From: Acidobacteriota bacterium
GTDB lineage: Bacteria; Acidobacteriota; Terriglobia; Terriglobales; Acidobacteriaceae
Length of the DNA: 38,067 nt
Assembly: GCA_019510535.1 (NCBI GenBank)
Contig: JAEKKE010000077.1
Span: 1-38,067, forward strand
Direction of reading: 5' to 3'
Part shown: positions 9,269 to 38,067 of the stretch, piece after piece
Layout: each line of letters opens with the position of its first letter
Numbering within the stretch: the stretch's first letter is position 1
Notes under the pieces: generated by a model
Told to the model about the DNA's origin: nothing
Databases searched by the model: none
The model's input: the letters and a program-made list of their open reading frames with translations, nothing else
Program-made: the position numbers and the translations under genes

Positions 9269-9379
9269 GAGCATTTTTCCTGTTGCTAGGTATCTCGGGA
9301 GGAGCGTGCAGCGGCGTTTTCATTGCGAAAACGCCCATGGATGCACAAGCCCTGCACTACACCTACAGGAAAAATGCTC
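9269..9379. repeat. 111-bp TIR element, copy A
   Basis: Perfect 15-bp TIRs GAGCATTTTTCCTGT / ACAGGAAAAATGCTC; inner hairpin GGCGTTTTCattGCGAAAACGCC and GTGCAG/CTGCAC stem; right end abuts the zwf stop. Confidence 0.9.
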
Positions 9380-19035: not shown

Positions 19036-21302
19036 TTATCTTGTCTTCCATTTGCCGCCGAGGGCGGCGAGCTTTTCTTCCATCGTCTGCGGTGGAGCAG
19101 GAGCAGCGGGGCGCGGCTTCCCTGCTGGAGGTCTGGCTCCGCCGGATGTCCGATTCGGTCCGTTTGCGCTGGGGGCTGCACTTCCATTCTTAACCTTCGG
19201 CCCGGCAGGAGCCTCAAGCTGCTTGATCGAGAGCGAGATACGGCGTGTCTTCTCGTCCGCTCCCAGCACCTTGACCTTCACAATCTGTCCGGTCTTCACG
19301 GCTTCATGAGGATCTTTGATGAACTTATTCGAAAGCTCGCTGATGTGAACCAGGCCATCCTGGTGCACGCCAACATCGACAAACGCGCCAAACTTGGTGA
19401 CATTGGTGACGACACCTTCCAGCACCATGCCCTCTTGCAGATCGCTCAACTCGTTGACACCCTCAGCAAAGCTGGGGGCGACAAACTTCTCGCGCGGATC
19501 GCGTCCGGGCTTGCGCAGTTCTTCGAGGATGTCGTTCAGTGTGAATGCTCCCGCATCGAGACGCGAGCGATCGACTTTCTCCAGCAACTGCGGATTCTTG
19601 ATGACATGCTCGATCGGTGTTCGGATCGCCGAAGCAATCTGCTCTACGACCCGATAGGTCTCCGGGTGCACCGCAGTCGAGTCCAGAGGATTCACACTTT
19701 GCCGTTGTTGTCGCGGTGGCTCACGATGCTCTGTGCCGTACGCTCGCTGATTCCGGAGACATAACGCAGCAGGGTCCATGAAGCTGTGTTCAGATCAACG
19801 CCAACGCGGTTCACGCAGCTCTCAATCGTATGCTCCAGCGACTCCTGCAGCGCCTTCTGGTCGACATCGTGTTGATACTGACCGACGCCGATCGCCTTGG
19901 GATCAACTTTCACCAGCTCAGAGAGAGGGTCCTGTAGACGGCGCGCAATCGAGATGGCTCCACGCACCGTCAGATCGAGGTCAGGAAACTCCTGCCGCGC
20001 AACGTCCGATGCGGAGTAAACGCTGGCTCCGCTCTCACTGACCGTAACGGAGAAGACAGTGCTCAGGTGATGTTCGCGAAGGAACTCACGCACAAACTGA
20101 TCGGTCTCGCGCGATGCGGTTCCATTGCCAATGGCGATGGCGCGCACGTTGTGTCCCTTCAGCAGAGCCGCGACCTTCTGCTTGGCCTGTTCCACCTGGG
20201 CTTTTCCGGTGTGCGGATACATCACATCATGCGCCAGGAACTTGCCAGTCTCATCGACGACGGCAAGCTTGCAGCCGGTGCGCAGGCCGGGATCGATACC
20301 GAGCACAGCAAGCGGACCAGCCGGCGGGGCCAGCAGGAGATGATGCAGATTCTCGCGGAAGACCTCGATTGCCTCCTTATCGGAACGGCGCTTCAACTCC
20401 AGGCGAATCTCGCTCTGGATCGATGACTTCATCAGACGCGTCCAGGCATCTTCCAGCGCGAGGGTCACGTGCGACGTCCAGTCTCCCTGGTCGCGCAGAA
20501 CGCGTGCCCGCAACAAAGCCAGAATGCGCTCCTGATCGCTTTCGATCAGGAAGTAAAGCACACCCTCTTCTTCACCGCGGCGGACCGCCAGCATGCGGTG
20601 CGACGGAATCGTCTTCACCGGCTCGCGGTACTCGTAGTACATCTTGAACTTTTCCTGGGGATCCTTCGGAGCATCGCCTTCAAGCTCCATCACCTTACGC
20701 GAGACGATGATGCCCTCATCGAACAGGACCTGACGAAGTTCCTTACGCAGATCGGCGTCTTCGCTAATGCGTTCGGCAACGATGTGACGAGCGCCTTCCA
20801 ATGCAGCTTCCACATCGGCAACACCTTTCTCTGCATCGACGAAGGAGGCGGCGAGAGTGACGAGATCCTGCTCGCCACGCTGCTGGGCCCACAGATACTC
20901 TGCCAGCGGCTCTAGCCCGGCCTCGCGTGCAATGGTTGCCTTGGTACGGCGCTTCGGGCGGTAAGGGAGATAGAGGTCCTCGAGCTCGCTCTTATCCATC
21001 GCGGCCTCGATACGGGCCTTGAGATCGTCAGTGAGCTTGCCCTGCTCCGCAATGGAGGCCAGAATCGTCTCCCGGCGGGAGACCAGCTCACGGAAGTAGG
21101 TCACACGCTCTTCGATCGAACGGATCTGTACTTCATCGAGGTTGCCAGTGGCCTCCTTACGGTAGCGGGCGATAAACGGAACAGTACCGCCATCGTCCAG
21201 CAGTTCGATCACAGCCACAAGGCTGCGCAGCGGAACATTCAGTTCGTTGGAGATGTGTTGCAACAGGGAAAGAGCCAGCGCGGGAAACTTCGATTCAGCC
21301 AT
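19036..21302 (-). pseudogene. tex: tex (RNA-binding S1 transcription accessory protein) split into two ORFs by a probable deletion and frameshift
   Basis: ORF 19692..21302 carries the Tex N-terminus through ...LNTASWTLLRYVSGISERTAQSIVSHRDNNGKV*. ORF 19036..19779 resumes at NPLDSTAVHPETYRVVEQ and has the C-terminal S1 domain. The HhH segment that normally lies between them is missing. Confidence 0.85.
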
Positions 21303-21378
21303 AGTCCTCGACTGATCTTAAAGGAAGTTGCCGTGAGGAAATGTTGGGATCAAAGCTCGACGCAAAAAGATGTTACTA

Positions 21379-21489
21379 GAGCATTTTCCTGTCGCTGGGT
21401 ATCCCGAGAAAAGCGTGCAGCGGCGTTTTCATTGCGGAAAACGCCCATAGATGCACGAGCCCTGCACTACACCTACAGGAAAAATGCTC
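21379..21489. repeat. 111-bp TIR element, copy B
   Basis: GAGCATTTTCCTGT (21379-21392) / ACAGGAAAAATGCTC (21475-21489), inner GGCGTTTTCattGCGGAAAACGCC, flanked by TA on both sides. Confidence 0.9.
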
Positions 21490-23150: not shown

Positions 23151-24235
23151 ATGCCACGTTTGCTGCTGCTGGGAGCGATCCTGTTTATGACGCCATGCCT
23201 TATGGCGCAGGCGACGAAGGCGGATGAGGTCATCCAAAAGGCGATCGCCGCCATGGGTGGCATCGAGAAGATCCATGCTCTCCACAGCCTTATCTATCGC
23301 GGGTTTCATTACGAAGGCAGCTATCAGCAGGAGTACGTGCAGACCAAGACGTCAAGCTCGGTAATGGTGCGCATGCGTCCGGGATTACGCCTCGTAGGGT
23401 GCAGACCGGAGATTCCTGGCTGCCACAGGCAGTGGAGCAGAATCGTCGAAGGCTTCGATGGCCTGCGCGGATGGGAGCTCAACTGGCCGAAGCAACGGCT
23501 GGTGCGCACCGTCAATAAGGCCGAACATGCCCTGCACTGCGGAGCCGCCTTCGACTATCTCTTCATCGACTACAAGGAACGAGGCTTCCATGCCGCCTAC
23601 CTCGGAACGCAGCACGTTCTTGGCATGGATGTCGAAACCATTCAGATTGACAGGCCGGATTGCGGATCGGGCATGCTCTACTACTTCGATCCGCAGACCT
23701 ATGACATTCGCATGACGCGGGCTAAGCTTCCGATTCACGCGCGTGGTGATGCCGTCGACACCGTCGCTGTTTATACGAAAAACCTGGAAGCGTGGAGTGG
23801 ACCTCCATCGAAGCAAATACGCTCAACGATCCTGGAATCTTTCAGGCGCCGGAGGTTCACCCCTCGGGAATAACAGCCGTTGTCCTGAAGATGCTGGAGC
23901 AGGCAAACCATGACACTCCGAGCCAGATGATGGCAACCTACATCGGCTTTCGTCATGGCGCCGAAGGCAAAGATGCCGACGTGGTCTATGACATGAACTG
24001 GCTAGGATACGAGCTTTTGAAGGTCGACAAATACAGCCACGCCTTACCCGTATTTCTTCAGATCGTGCGCGAGAATCCGCAATCAGCGGATGCCTACGAC
24101 AACCTCGGGGAAGCCTATCTCCAGAAGAAGGATCGCAAAAGTGCAATTGCCGCCTTCGAACAGGCTTTGAAGCTGGGAGCAAAAGGAGACGCCGTTCAGC
24201 AAAAGCTGGACCGCCTGCGCAAAGGAGAACGTTAG
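23151..24235 (+). pseudogene. Secreted TPR-containing hypothetical protein, frame-disrupted
   Basis: First frame runs MPRLLLLGAILFMTPCLMAQA...DAVDTVAVYTKN then drifts to a stop at 23873. A different frame continues GSVEWTSIEANTLNDPGIFQAPEVHPSGI... with a TPR (SADAYDNLGEAYLQKKDRKSAIAAFEQALKLG) to 24235. Confidence 0.7.
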
Positions 24236-28256: not shown

Positions 28257-28258
28257 TA

Positions 28259-28370
28259 GAGCATTTCTCCTGTTGCTGGGTAGCCCGGAAGGGGAGTACA
28301 GCGGCGTTTTCATTGCGGAAAACGCCCATCGATACGGAATCCCTACACTACACCTAGAGGAGAAATGCTC
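28259..28370. repeat. 112-bp TIR element, copy C
   Basis: GAGCATTTCTCCTGT / AGAGGAGAAATGCTC (one mismatch), inner GGCGTTTTCattGCGGAAAACGCC, flanked by TA on both sides. Confidence 0.9.
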
Positions 28371-31405: not shown

Positions 31406-31517
31406 GAGTATTTTCCCTGTAGGTATAGTGTAGGGCTTCCGCATCTATGGGCGTTTTCCGTAATGAAAACGCCGCTGCACTCCTCTTTCGGGATACCCAC
31501 CAACAGGGAAAATGCTC
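31406..31517. repeat. 112-bp TIR element, copy D (inverted relative to A-C)
   Basis: GAGTATTTTCCCTGT / ACAGGGAAAATGCTC (one mismatch); reverse complement matches copies A-C along its length. Confidence 0.9.
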
Positions 31518-33253
31518 TAAAAATCGGTGTCAGTGTCTTTGTTCTTGTCTTTATGCTTCTGCTTCGAGGCCGACTTACTGCCATCGCGAACAATCACACC
31601 GTTTTGATTAATGATGACACGGGTGCCGTTCGCGTCTCTGATATCTATCCCCGCGGGAGGAGCCGGAGGTGCAGGCGGCGCTCCGGGCTTTTCCATCGTG
31701 ATCTTCGGCGGAGCCGGCGGTGTAGCCGGAATTGGCGGCAGTGTATTGCGATTGATGGAGATATCGCTCTCAGAGTTGAGGATGCGGATCTGCTTGCCAC
31801 CCCCATTGATAGAGCCTGAGAGCATGTGGCGATCGCCGCTCGAGTTCCGGTCCAGCGGAAGGTCAGTATCGGTCGACCCGTTCTTCGTCTCCGCGGAGAT
31901 CGTGTAGCCAGCCTTCTCCGGCACCGTAAGCTTCACATCGCCGCTGCGATTGGTCACCGTAACATTGCCAACGGGTTGCGCAACACCGATCTCGACCGTG
32001 CCATTCTTGTTGGTTACCGTTACGTCACCGGCAACGCGGTTCATGACGATGTCACGGCTGCGCGTATTCAGAACGACGGGACCCAACACATCTTCCACCG
32101 TCATGTCGTGGTCGGGGTCGATATCGACATGACCGTCCAGGCGGACGAAGCGAAACTCCGTGCGGCTGGTGCGCAGTTGGAACGGCCCCTGGACACGCTC
32201 GATGCGCCCCGCACCGAAGAAGTCTCCATTCATCTGCACCGGCCCATTCACATCGGAGATGCTGAGCTCGTCGATCTTGCCTTCAATATTGAGCGAACCC
32301 GTCAGAGAGTGTGCATTCAGCGACGAATCGTTGTTGTTGATATGCACGTTCGAGGTTCCGGTAATGGCCGAGATATCGACGTTGCCATGATTGGCCGTCA
32401 GATTCACCGGAGCCTTCAGATTGCGGACATGGAGCTCACCATGATTCGCGGTTGCGGTCACAAGGGCCGTGGCCGGAACCGTAATATCGAGGTCGAGCTT
32501 GCATCCCTTCTCTGCCGCGATATTCACCACCACGCTGTTGCCGCTGGCGGAAATATTGGGATCGATCGCCTTCGCCTTGCGCTCAGCCTCCGAGTCGCTG
32601 TCGGAGTAAACCTCTTTATGACCGGTAATGTGCAGCTTGCCGTCGTCGCTGGTGCCGGCAATGGTCAGGTCGCCCCGCGGATTGTCCACGGTAAGCGTTC
32701 CACCCTCGGGGAATGCCTGCTCAACCGGCGTCAAATCGCTCTCATGCTTGTCACCCGTAAACTCGTCCCAGTTATCACTACTGACATGGAAGCTGCGGGC
32801 AACCCATCCGTTGACGCGGCGCGAGTCCGTATAGGCGAGACTGACAAACGCCAGAAGGATCACCAGAAAGACCACGCCGCCTACACTGCGCCGCACCGGC
32901 GGAGCATCACCGGCCCGTAAGTAGCGATCCACAGCCCACTCGGCCAACATCAGCACGCCGATTGCAATCAGCACCAGCGGCCAGAAATGTCCGTACCAGT
33001 TCCAGAACTGATTCGCGGCAATGCGTCCCGTCTGGATCAGTAGAAAAACAATGCCGATGGCCACCAGAAGCAGCGGGCCAACGATGGAGCCCCGGCGATA
33101 CTGCCGCATCTGCCAGCGCATCTGTTCACGCTGCAACCGGGCCTGGGCCCGCCATGCATCACGCTGCGCCTTTGCCTGATCGCGGGCAATACGCTGCTGC
33201 TGACGCCACTGCTCACGTTGAAAACGAGGATCGATTGGAGGAATCGTAGCCAT
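31517..33253 (-). CDS. Membrane protein with LiaI/LiaF-like TM segments and DUF4097-like putative adhesin beta-repeat domain
   Basis: GSIVGPLLLVAIGIVFLL...HFWPLVLIAIGVLMLAEW; then LTVDNPRGDLTIAG..., ANHGELHVRNLKAPVNLTANHGNVDIS repeats. Confidence 0.8.
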   Translation of the reverse strand: MATIPPIDPRFQREQWRQQQRIARDQAKAQRDAWRAQARLQREQMRWQMRQYRRGSIVGPLLLVAIGIVFLLIQTGRIAANQFWNWYGHFWPLVLIAIGVLMLAEWAVDRYLRAGDAPPVRRSVGGVVFLVILLAFVSLAYTDSRRVNGWVARSFHVSSDNWDEFTGDKHESDLTPVEQAFPEGGTLTVDNPRGDLTIAGTSDDGKLHITGHKEVYSDSDSEAERKAKAIDPNISASGNSVVVNIAAEKGCKLDLDITVPATALVTATANHGELHVRNLKAPVNLTANHGNVDISAITGTSNVHINNNDSSLNAHSLTGSLNIEGKIDELSISDVNGPVQMNGDFFGAGRIERVQGPFQLRTSRTEFRFVRLDGHVDIDPDHDMTVEDVLGPVVLNTRSRDIVMNRVAGDVTVTNKNGTVEIGVAQPVGNVTVTNRSGDVKLTVPEKAGYTISAETKNGSTDTDLPLDRNSSGDRHMLSGSINGGGKQIRILNSESDISINRNTLPPIPATPPAPPKITMEKPGAPPAPPAPPAGIDIRDANGTRVIINQNGVIVRDGSKSASKQKHKDKNKDTDTDF

Positions 33254-35351: not shown

Positions 35352-36125
35352 TTACACCACCTGCCTTTCGGTCTTTCCTAGGATTCTTGCCAACTCACCG
35401 CGTCCGCGGTTGATGCGGCTTTTGACGGTGCCCTCGGGCACCTTGAGTACTGCCGCAATCTCTTTGTAATCCATGTCTTCCAGATCGCGCAGAATAACTG
35501 CTTCGCGCAACTCTGGCGACAGCTGTTTCAGCGCCGTCTGGATACGGGTCTTCAGCTCCAGGCCGGCGACATGCTCATGCTGGGTCTTGCGTGTATCGGC
35601 CAGCCGGTCGGCGAAGGTCGGTCCGTCGTCTTCCCCGTCAAAACTTGCGTCCATCGAATCCGAGACCCGGTCCATGCGCGTGCGGCGGAAGTGATCCACC
35701 AGCAGATTGCGCGCCAGCGTCGTGATCCAGGTCTGGAAGCTGCCCTTGAAGGCGTCGAAGCTGTCCAGGTTCCGGTACAGCTTCAGAAAAACATCCTGCG
35801 TTAGATCTTCGGCGTCTGTAGGTGATCCCGTAAAGCGGTAGCAGATGGCGTAAATCCGCCGGTGTTGCGAAGCAACGAGCTGCTGCCAGGCGTGGGAGTC
35901 CCCCGCCATACACTGGCGAACCAGCTTCTCCATCGCCTCCTGCTCGGGCGTGCGCTCCACAATTCGTTCCTCAGCCTGCTTATGTGTCTGATCGAGTGTA
36001 ACTTGCGGCACAGGCGAAGAGGGGGGAACCTGGCCCTTTCGAGGATCCGGTCCCAGCAGCATGGCCCGCTTTACCGGTATGACCGGCAAGCCGTGCGCGG
36101 GAATCGCCATGTGTAAAACGCCCAT
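35352..36125 (-). CDS. RNA polymerase sigma factor, ECF type
   Basis: Region 2 YAICYRFTGSPTDAEDLTQDVFLKLYRNLDSFDAFKGSFQTWITTLARNLLVDHFRR; region 4 LREAVILRDLEDMDYKEIAAVLKVPEGTVKSRINRGRGEL. The start may be 36110. Confidence 0.9.
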   Translation of the reverse strand: MGVLHMAIPAHGLPVIPVKRAMLLGPDPRKGQVPPSSPVPQVTLDQTHKQAEERIVERTPEQEAMEKLVRQCMAGDSHAWQQLVASQHRRIYAICYRFTGSPTDAEDLTQDVFLKLYRNLDSFDAFKGSFQTWITTLARNLLVDHFRRTRMDRVSDSMDASFDGEDDGPTFADRLADTRKTQHEHVAGLELKTRIQTALKQLSPELREAVILRDLEDMDYKEIAAVLKVPEGTVKSRINRGRGELARILGKTERQVV

Positions 36126-36291: not shown

Positions 36292-37278
36292 ATGTCTAAG
36301 GTCCATCTCTCCCTGTCTGCCTGTGCTCTGCTGGCCTGCTCGGCCATCGCCTTTGCTCAGGCGCCGGCGGCCGCCCCAGCCGCACGACCGGCTCCCCCGC
36401 CGCTGGAAAGCCCCAACCCGCACTACGTCTCGTTCGTTCTGATCCAGGATGTCAACGCGTCAGCCGACACGGTCTGGGCTCGGGTGGGCAAATACTGCGA
36501 CATCGGCGAGTGGGGATTTCCGTGCACCATCCTCCAGGGACCAGGGAATGAGATCGGCTCCGTTCGGTCGATCCAGAACGAGGTGATGGTCGGCAAAACC
36601 ACCTCTACCACGCCACCCTGGAGGTGGTTCCGGTGACGGCAAAGACATCCCGGCTGGAGTACAGCTTCCTCTACGACAACTCCATGCTTACAGACGATGC
36701 CGCTCGTAATATCGAGATTGCCACCAGGAAGATGCGCTTTACCGGCTTCCTGAAGACGATGAAGACGCTGTCCGAGGGCGGCAAAGTTGAAAAACCGACC
36801 GCTCCTCCCCCGGTGCTCTCCACCGCGCCATGGCTGGTGCCTGAGCCACACTACGTCACCGTCCCCATGAGCGTCGACGTCAACGCTCCGGCAGATAAAG
36901 TCTGGGCCCGCATCGGCAAGTACTGCGGGCAAAGACGGTGAGCTGGGCACCATCCGCTCTATCGGCAACGAAGTGCTGGTGGGTAAGACGAAGTACAGTT
37001 ACATCTACACTCAGCCCAAACGGGTTGGCAGCAGCTACAACATGTACCACGGCGACCTGGAAGCCGAGCCCCTGACGGCTACCACCACCCGCCTGCACTA
37101 CACCCTGCTCTATGACAACTCCGCACTGCCGGACGATGCCGCAAAGCAGAAGGACATTGAAAACCGCCGCACCCGGTTTACCCAGATGCTCGAAAACATG
37201 AAGCTGCTGGCCGAGGGCAAGCCGTTACCGGAAGGCGCCGTACGCAGGCCTACGCCGCCTCCAACGACGCCACGATAA
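36292..37278 (+). pseudogene. Secreted tandem SRPBCC-like protein gene with two internal out-of-frame deletions
   Basis: Three ORFs (36292..36636, 36624..36941, 36973..37278) form two homologous repeats. Repeat 1 lacks 49 nt present in repeat 2, and repeat 2 lacks 38 nt present in repeat 1. Confidence 0.8.
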
Positions 37279-37447: not shown

Positions 37448-37963
37448 CTACATTGCGGGTTTTTCGATCACACCGCAGGCCAGCCGGCTACCGGCGTTTC
37501 CAGCCGGGTCGGTCATCTGGTCGTCAGCCTTCTCATGCACGACCACCGTGTGACCGTAGATGGAGTTCGGCGCCGACGGATCCAGTGACAGGTAGTCCGC
37601 GTCGAAGGTCTTGTGGCCCATGCCCCCGGTCATCGTCACCGACTCTGGGAAGTCGCCATCGTGATGTCCTTCGGGGTTCTTGAAACCGTGGTGCTTGTTT
37701 TCGGGGTTGAAATGACCGCCCGCGGACTGGAAGCTCGGAGCCTCACAGGTCGCACCGGCGTGCACATGCACGGCATGCTCACCGGCGGGCAGGTTCGCAA
37801 GCATGACCATGACCTTCACTCCGCTCTTAGCCGGAGAGAAGGTGACGTAACCGGCGTCCTTGCCGTTCGCGTCCTTCAACATAACCTTGACGGGCTTGGG
37901 TGCGGCAGCAAAAACGGGAACGGCAGCCAGAAGGGCGGCCGCAGCAACGGATGCAAGACGCAT
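37448..37963 (-). CDS. sodC: Cu/Zn superoxide dismutase, periplasmic
   Basis: GEHAVHVHAGATCEAPSFQSAGGHFNPENKHHG, HTVVVHEKADDQMTDPAGNAGSRLACGVI; signal peptide from MRLASVAAAALLAAVPVFAAA. Start set to 37963. Confidence 0.94.
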   Translation of the reverse strand: MRLASVAAAALLAAVPVFAAAPKPVKVMLKDANGKDAGYVTFSPAKSGVKVMVMLANLPAGEHAVHVHAGATCEAPSFQSAGGHFNPENKHHGFKNPEGHHDGDFPESVTMTGGMGHKTFDADYLSLDPSAPNSIYGHTVVVHEKADDQMTDPAGNAGSRLACGVIEKPAM

Positions 37964-38067
37964 AGTGAATCTCCTTGTATCCCGCAGGATACGTATAGGA
38001 TGCGTCACGATGCAAAACGTGGCCTACTGTGCAACCGCCGGAAGCTCCATCTGCTCGCTCTGGTTCT

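Follow-up and report, generated by a model that had tools for sequence, protein, structure and literature searches.

Proteins of the SRPBCC type share a helix-grip fold in which a long C-terminal helix packs on a curved beta sheet. In the Terriglobus group a tandem two-domain form occurs, assigned to family PF10604 (Polyketide_cyc2), and its orthologs are uninterrupted in five of five genomes of this group, complete or isolate ones included (the form is whole in G015, G002, G009, G017 and G005). A shorter form matching the second domain is present in three further genomes (G012, G003 and G013), and a search for the SRPBCC gene in ten other members of the genus gave no match. The ortholog closest to the gene described here lies in the Acidobacteriaceae metagenome-assembled genome Bin6.3 (L019), where a single ORF of 358 codons occupies the same place between the same neighbours. 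In a profile search the protein matched PF10604 in two stretches with 59.6 bits (E 5.5e-16), well above the family cut-off of 27.4.

Draft genomes assembled from metagenomes are known to carry local assembly errors, where the consensus lacks read support, as well as incorrect N gaps, and such errors, when left uncorrected, propagate incomplete or incorrect protein-coding genes (PMC7111523). The locus presented below resembles those cases in the apparently unsupported joins within a scaffold, the wrong N gaps elsewhere in the assembly and the broken protein-coding genes, and it differs from them in that they were diagnosed by read mapping whereas here the diagnosis comes from sequence comparison alone.

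The window, by which we mean the whole stretch of 38,067 nucleotides that was analysed, constitutes contig 53 in an assembly of 4.27 Mb and 724 contigs, which we infer to be a metagenome bin, and the source organism of the gene is a soil acidobacterium (Terriglobus). Reading of the ORFs and comparison with orthologs revealed that positions 36292-37278 hold a tandem two-domain SRPBCC (PF10604) gene which is split into three ORFs. The features of the locus are the following:

35352..36125, minus strand: ECF sigma-70 factor, intact divergent neighbour
36292..36600, plus strand: 5' piece, with a signal-peptide-like N-terminus and the first part of SRPBCC repeat 1 (ortholog residues 1-103)
36292-36636, plus strand: ORF 1 of the split SRPBCC gene
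36600..36601, plus strand: junction 1, where 49 nt of all close orthologs are missing
36601..36927, plus strand: middle piece, read in a shifted frame, with the remainder of repeat 1, the linker and the beginning of repeat 2
36624-36941, plus strand: ORF 2 of the split SRPBCC gene
36927..36928, plus strand: junction 2, where 41 nt of all close orthologs are missing
36928..37278, plus strand: 3' piece, with the remainder of repeat 2 up to the stop, the start-codon frame being regained
36973-37278, plus strand: ORF 3 of the split SRPBCC gene
37448..38008, minus strand: Cu/Zn superoxide dismutase (SodC), intact convergent neighbour

The duplication of the SRPBCC domain, already proposed in the initial annotation, is confirmed by a direct repeat of 106 nt within the gene, with 71% identity and a spacing of 439 nt. 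Domain order is identical to that of the orthologs of T. albidus DSM 26559 (L020), Bin6.3, G002, G017 and G005, and the neighbouring genes are shared with the closest relatives. At the amino acid level the pieces are 93-97% identical to the Bin6.3 protein. All of these orthologs are uninterrupted, whereas 49 and 41 nt are missing from the copy in the window, and at each break site residues that are conserved among the orthologs are removed. The gene measures 987 nt in the window and 1077 nt in Bin6.3, and the difference of 90 nt is made up of 49 nt lost after position 36600, corresponding to KYSYTYAQAPRQGVTYN as read in the ortholog, and 41 nt lost after position 36927, these being the only length differences between the two genes. 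The same two values were obtained with T. albidus DSM 26559 and G002 as references.

The initial annotation had described a continuous two-repeat gene interrupted by two out-of-frame losses, which is right as a description, and it had placed both breaks accurately. Its figure of exactly 49 nt for the first loss agrees with the orthologs, while its 38 nt for the second has to be revised to 41 nt; the lower figure arose because repeat 1 had served as the reference and repeat 2 has by nature an additional codon at this point (FPGCTI as against FPCTI). That neither loss is divisible by three holds for the revised sizes also. The term reciprocal, applied to the deletions at that time, is true only loosely since the losses do not coincide in their position within the domain and do not represent both outcomes of a single exchange; they are independent of each other. 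Nor do the sequences lend support to a biologically meaningful reciprocal pair, because similar losses occur in the same assembly within unrelated genes that carry no tandem repeats. The comparison with orthologs which had been proposed as a check was carried out, and all the two-domain orthologs found were intact; the interruption is not a matter of chance.

Split in this way, the pieces taken alone fall below the PF10604 cut-off of 27.4, with 17.8 and 23.3 bits, in contrast to the two matches of the intact protein. A sequence search against solved structures (PDB) produced weak matches only, the best with E 0.059, and among them was the SRPBCC-fold receptor PYL2 (E 0.55). An AlphaFold2 model, of low confidence (mean pLDDT 57.6, three sequences), showed the order strand-helix-strands-helix in both halves, and in this model the segments missing from the window would correspond to one strand in repeat 1 and to a loop and a strand in repeat 2. 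Judged by eye, the N-terminus resembles a signal peptide, and family knowledge suggests that the intact protein is likely to be exported and to bind a putative hydrophobic ligand. A further two-domain ortholog, with 59% identity, was observed at positions 4746-5855 of L021, on a contig labelled as belonging to a Rhodanobacteraceae metagenome-assembled genome, and reflects horizontal transfer, unless the contig is acidobacterial and was misbinned.

Comparison of the gene with its Bin6.3 ortholog yielded 39 synonymous and 5 nonsynonymous codon differences and, on this evidence, the gene is, breaks aside, under strong purifying selection. Relaxed selection or further decay was sought in the window copy and not found, no other lesion being present, although a very young pseudogene would look alike.

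Similar losses were then found in other genes of the same assembly. The window was aligned to three relatives, the alignments were extended to ten more contigs (about 150 kb in all), and about 375 kb of corresponding sequence in the relatives was treated by identical criteria. Two of the additional breaks lie in the window:

19698..19699, minus strand: loss of 88 nt, as compared with G002 and T. albidus, that breaks a gene with 784 codons in the relatives
23786..23790, plus strand: loss of 67 nt, as compared with three relatives, that breaks a further gene

Both of these losses are out of frame and lie in the interior of genes that the relatives possess intact. Two more interior, out-of-frame coding losses were located on other contigs, of 56 nt (C401) and 142 nt (C378). 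In the 375 kb of the relatives no comparable clean deletion was detected, save that G002 lacks a dispersed repeat some 110 nt in length. Six of the seven deletion events are in the window's assembly (binomial tail ~0.004). The filter also passed a 59-nt insertion in the window's assembly (contig C615) and, in T. albidus, a 23-nt insertion together with a complex difference. Against G002, the affected genes show raw dN values of 0.012-0.043 and dS values of 0.25-0.37, similar to those of other genes; their dN/dS is low and the constraint on them is normal.

It is this recurrence of one kind of defect in unrelated genes of the assembly, with none in close relatives, that favours assembly error, and we consider it very probable that the two losses are local assembly or scaffolding errors of a metagenome-type draft, ordinary rather than biological in origin, and that the SRPBCC gene is probably whole in the organism. 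Assembly error had been named in the initial annotation as the outcome that would overturn its reading, and on balance the evidence favours it. Where support was poor, two ends would have been joined directly by the assembler or scaffolder, with loss of the intervening 49 and 41 nt; the missing segments would then be contained in the reads and an assembly step would be responsible for their loss. Errors of joining are also apparent elsewhere in the draft, in that two other contigs carry N runs 63 and 37 long at places where relatives have 5-6 and about 3 bases, so that scaffold joins in this assembly have been mis-sized by tens of bases.

The sequence at the junctions bears on how such a join could have arisen. 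The shared sequence (microhomology) amounts to only 0-2 nt, and neither flanking direct repeats beyond this length nor a long shared sequence nor a slippery run was found at the SRPBCC junctions. Such limited microhomology is unlike slippage between direct repeats, which was rejected for this reason, as was the collapse in assembly of a repeat of long k-mer size, for which a long shared sequence would be needed. Exchange between the two repeats, by unequal crossing over or conversion, was also discarded because the losses do not fall at the same point of the domain and the sequence on either side agrees all along with the orthologous repeat. The absence of overlap speaks against assembly error too, in that plain de Bruijn assembly joins sequences only over a long exact overlap; it implies that the join was made by a scaffolder or gap filler, or else by real reads. 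The last 139 bases of the window (37929-38067) recur without a difference at the end of another contig of this draft, C1, and this overlap may hint at the use of long k-mers. If the junctions were assembled at long k, spanning reads would be needed and at least a part of the cells would truly carry the deletions. Contig C1 carries the downstream genes in the T. albidus order.

The main alternative, to which we assign a small but appreciable probability, is that the gene is a real and very recent pseudogene, produced by two independent short deletions as part of a fresh loss of several genes. The contig is indeed continuous at both breaks, with no N, and the copy here is interrupted where the orthologs of relatives are intact; moreover, other members of the genus have a single-domain form or lack the gene altogether, which makes it dispensable, and real microdeletions with little microhomology do occur. 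Two lesions in one gene with no further decay would, however, both have to be very young, and four more losses of the same kind would have had to strike constrained genes within about 150 kb of the same assembly. Genuine gene loss would also be expected to generate stop codons and small frameshifts, and no comparable load of interior nonsense mutations or 1-nt frameshifts was seen in genuine genes of the aligned stretches; the remaining matches of this kind, judged from the output overall, came for the most part from shadow ORFs, with dN close to dS or higher, or from the vicinity of gene ends. Pseudogene calls at 19698 and at 23786-23790 are as doubtful as that for the SRPBCC gene.

A more sweeping biological reading is that the deletions are real and that constrained genes of this Terriglobus lineage are being struck by a burst of deletions of 40-140 nt with almost no microhomology, faulty DNA repair or replication being one conceivable cause. 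If true, the genome would exhibit an unusual microdeletion burst, and we regard this as improbable. Still less probable is a mixture of strains, with the deletions confined to a minor strain whose path the assembler took into the consensus. Such a mixture would account for junctions spanned by reads, and the unjoined contig ends with 139 identical bases suggest branching of the graph; it requires, nevertheless, a minor strain with many broken genes, and a search of the same assembly for a second copy of the locus revealed none. Finally, a functional split, whether into three short proteins, by frameshifting that joins the pieces or by phase variation, is scarcely credible, for although the losses sum to 90 nt and bring the last piece back into the start-codon frame, the TGA at 36634-36636 terminates the first ORF ahead of that return and lies between the junctions, which also disposes of a programmed frameshift, the breaks each remove ortholog-conserved residues, and the junctions lack direct repeats and a slippery run.

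With local assembly error as the preferred explanation, the result amounts to a warning about quality, in that the pseudogene counts and split ORFs of this draft genome are unfit to be read as biology. Extrapolated from about 150 kb to the 4.27 Mb of the assembly, the four further losses would scale to well over a hundred, and falsely broken genes in the draft probably number roughly a hundred or more.

A dispersed element some 110 nt long lies in the window at 9269-9373, 21377-21483, 28257-28354 and 31410-31519, and it is found at some 40 or more sites in the assembly and in dozens of copies per relative, sometimes in tandem, and its presence or absence at the same site varies among relatives. 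Another such element, about 270 nt long (L132 9671-9940, contig C701), is present in some ten copies per relative which share about 75-92% identity.
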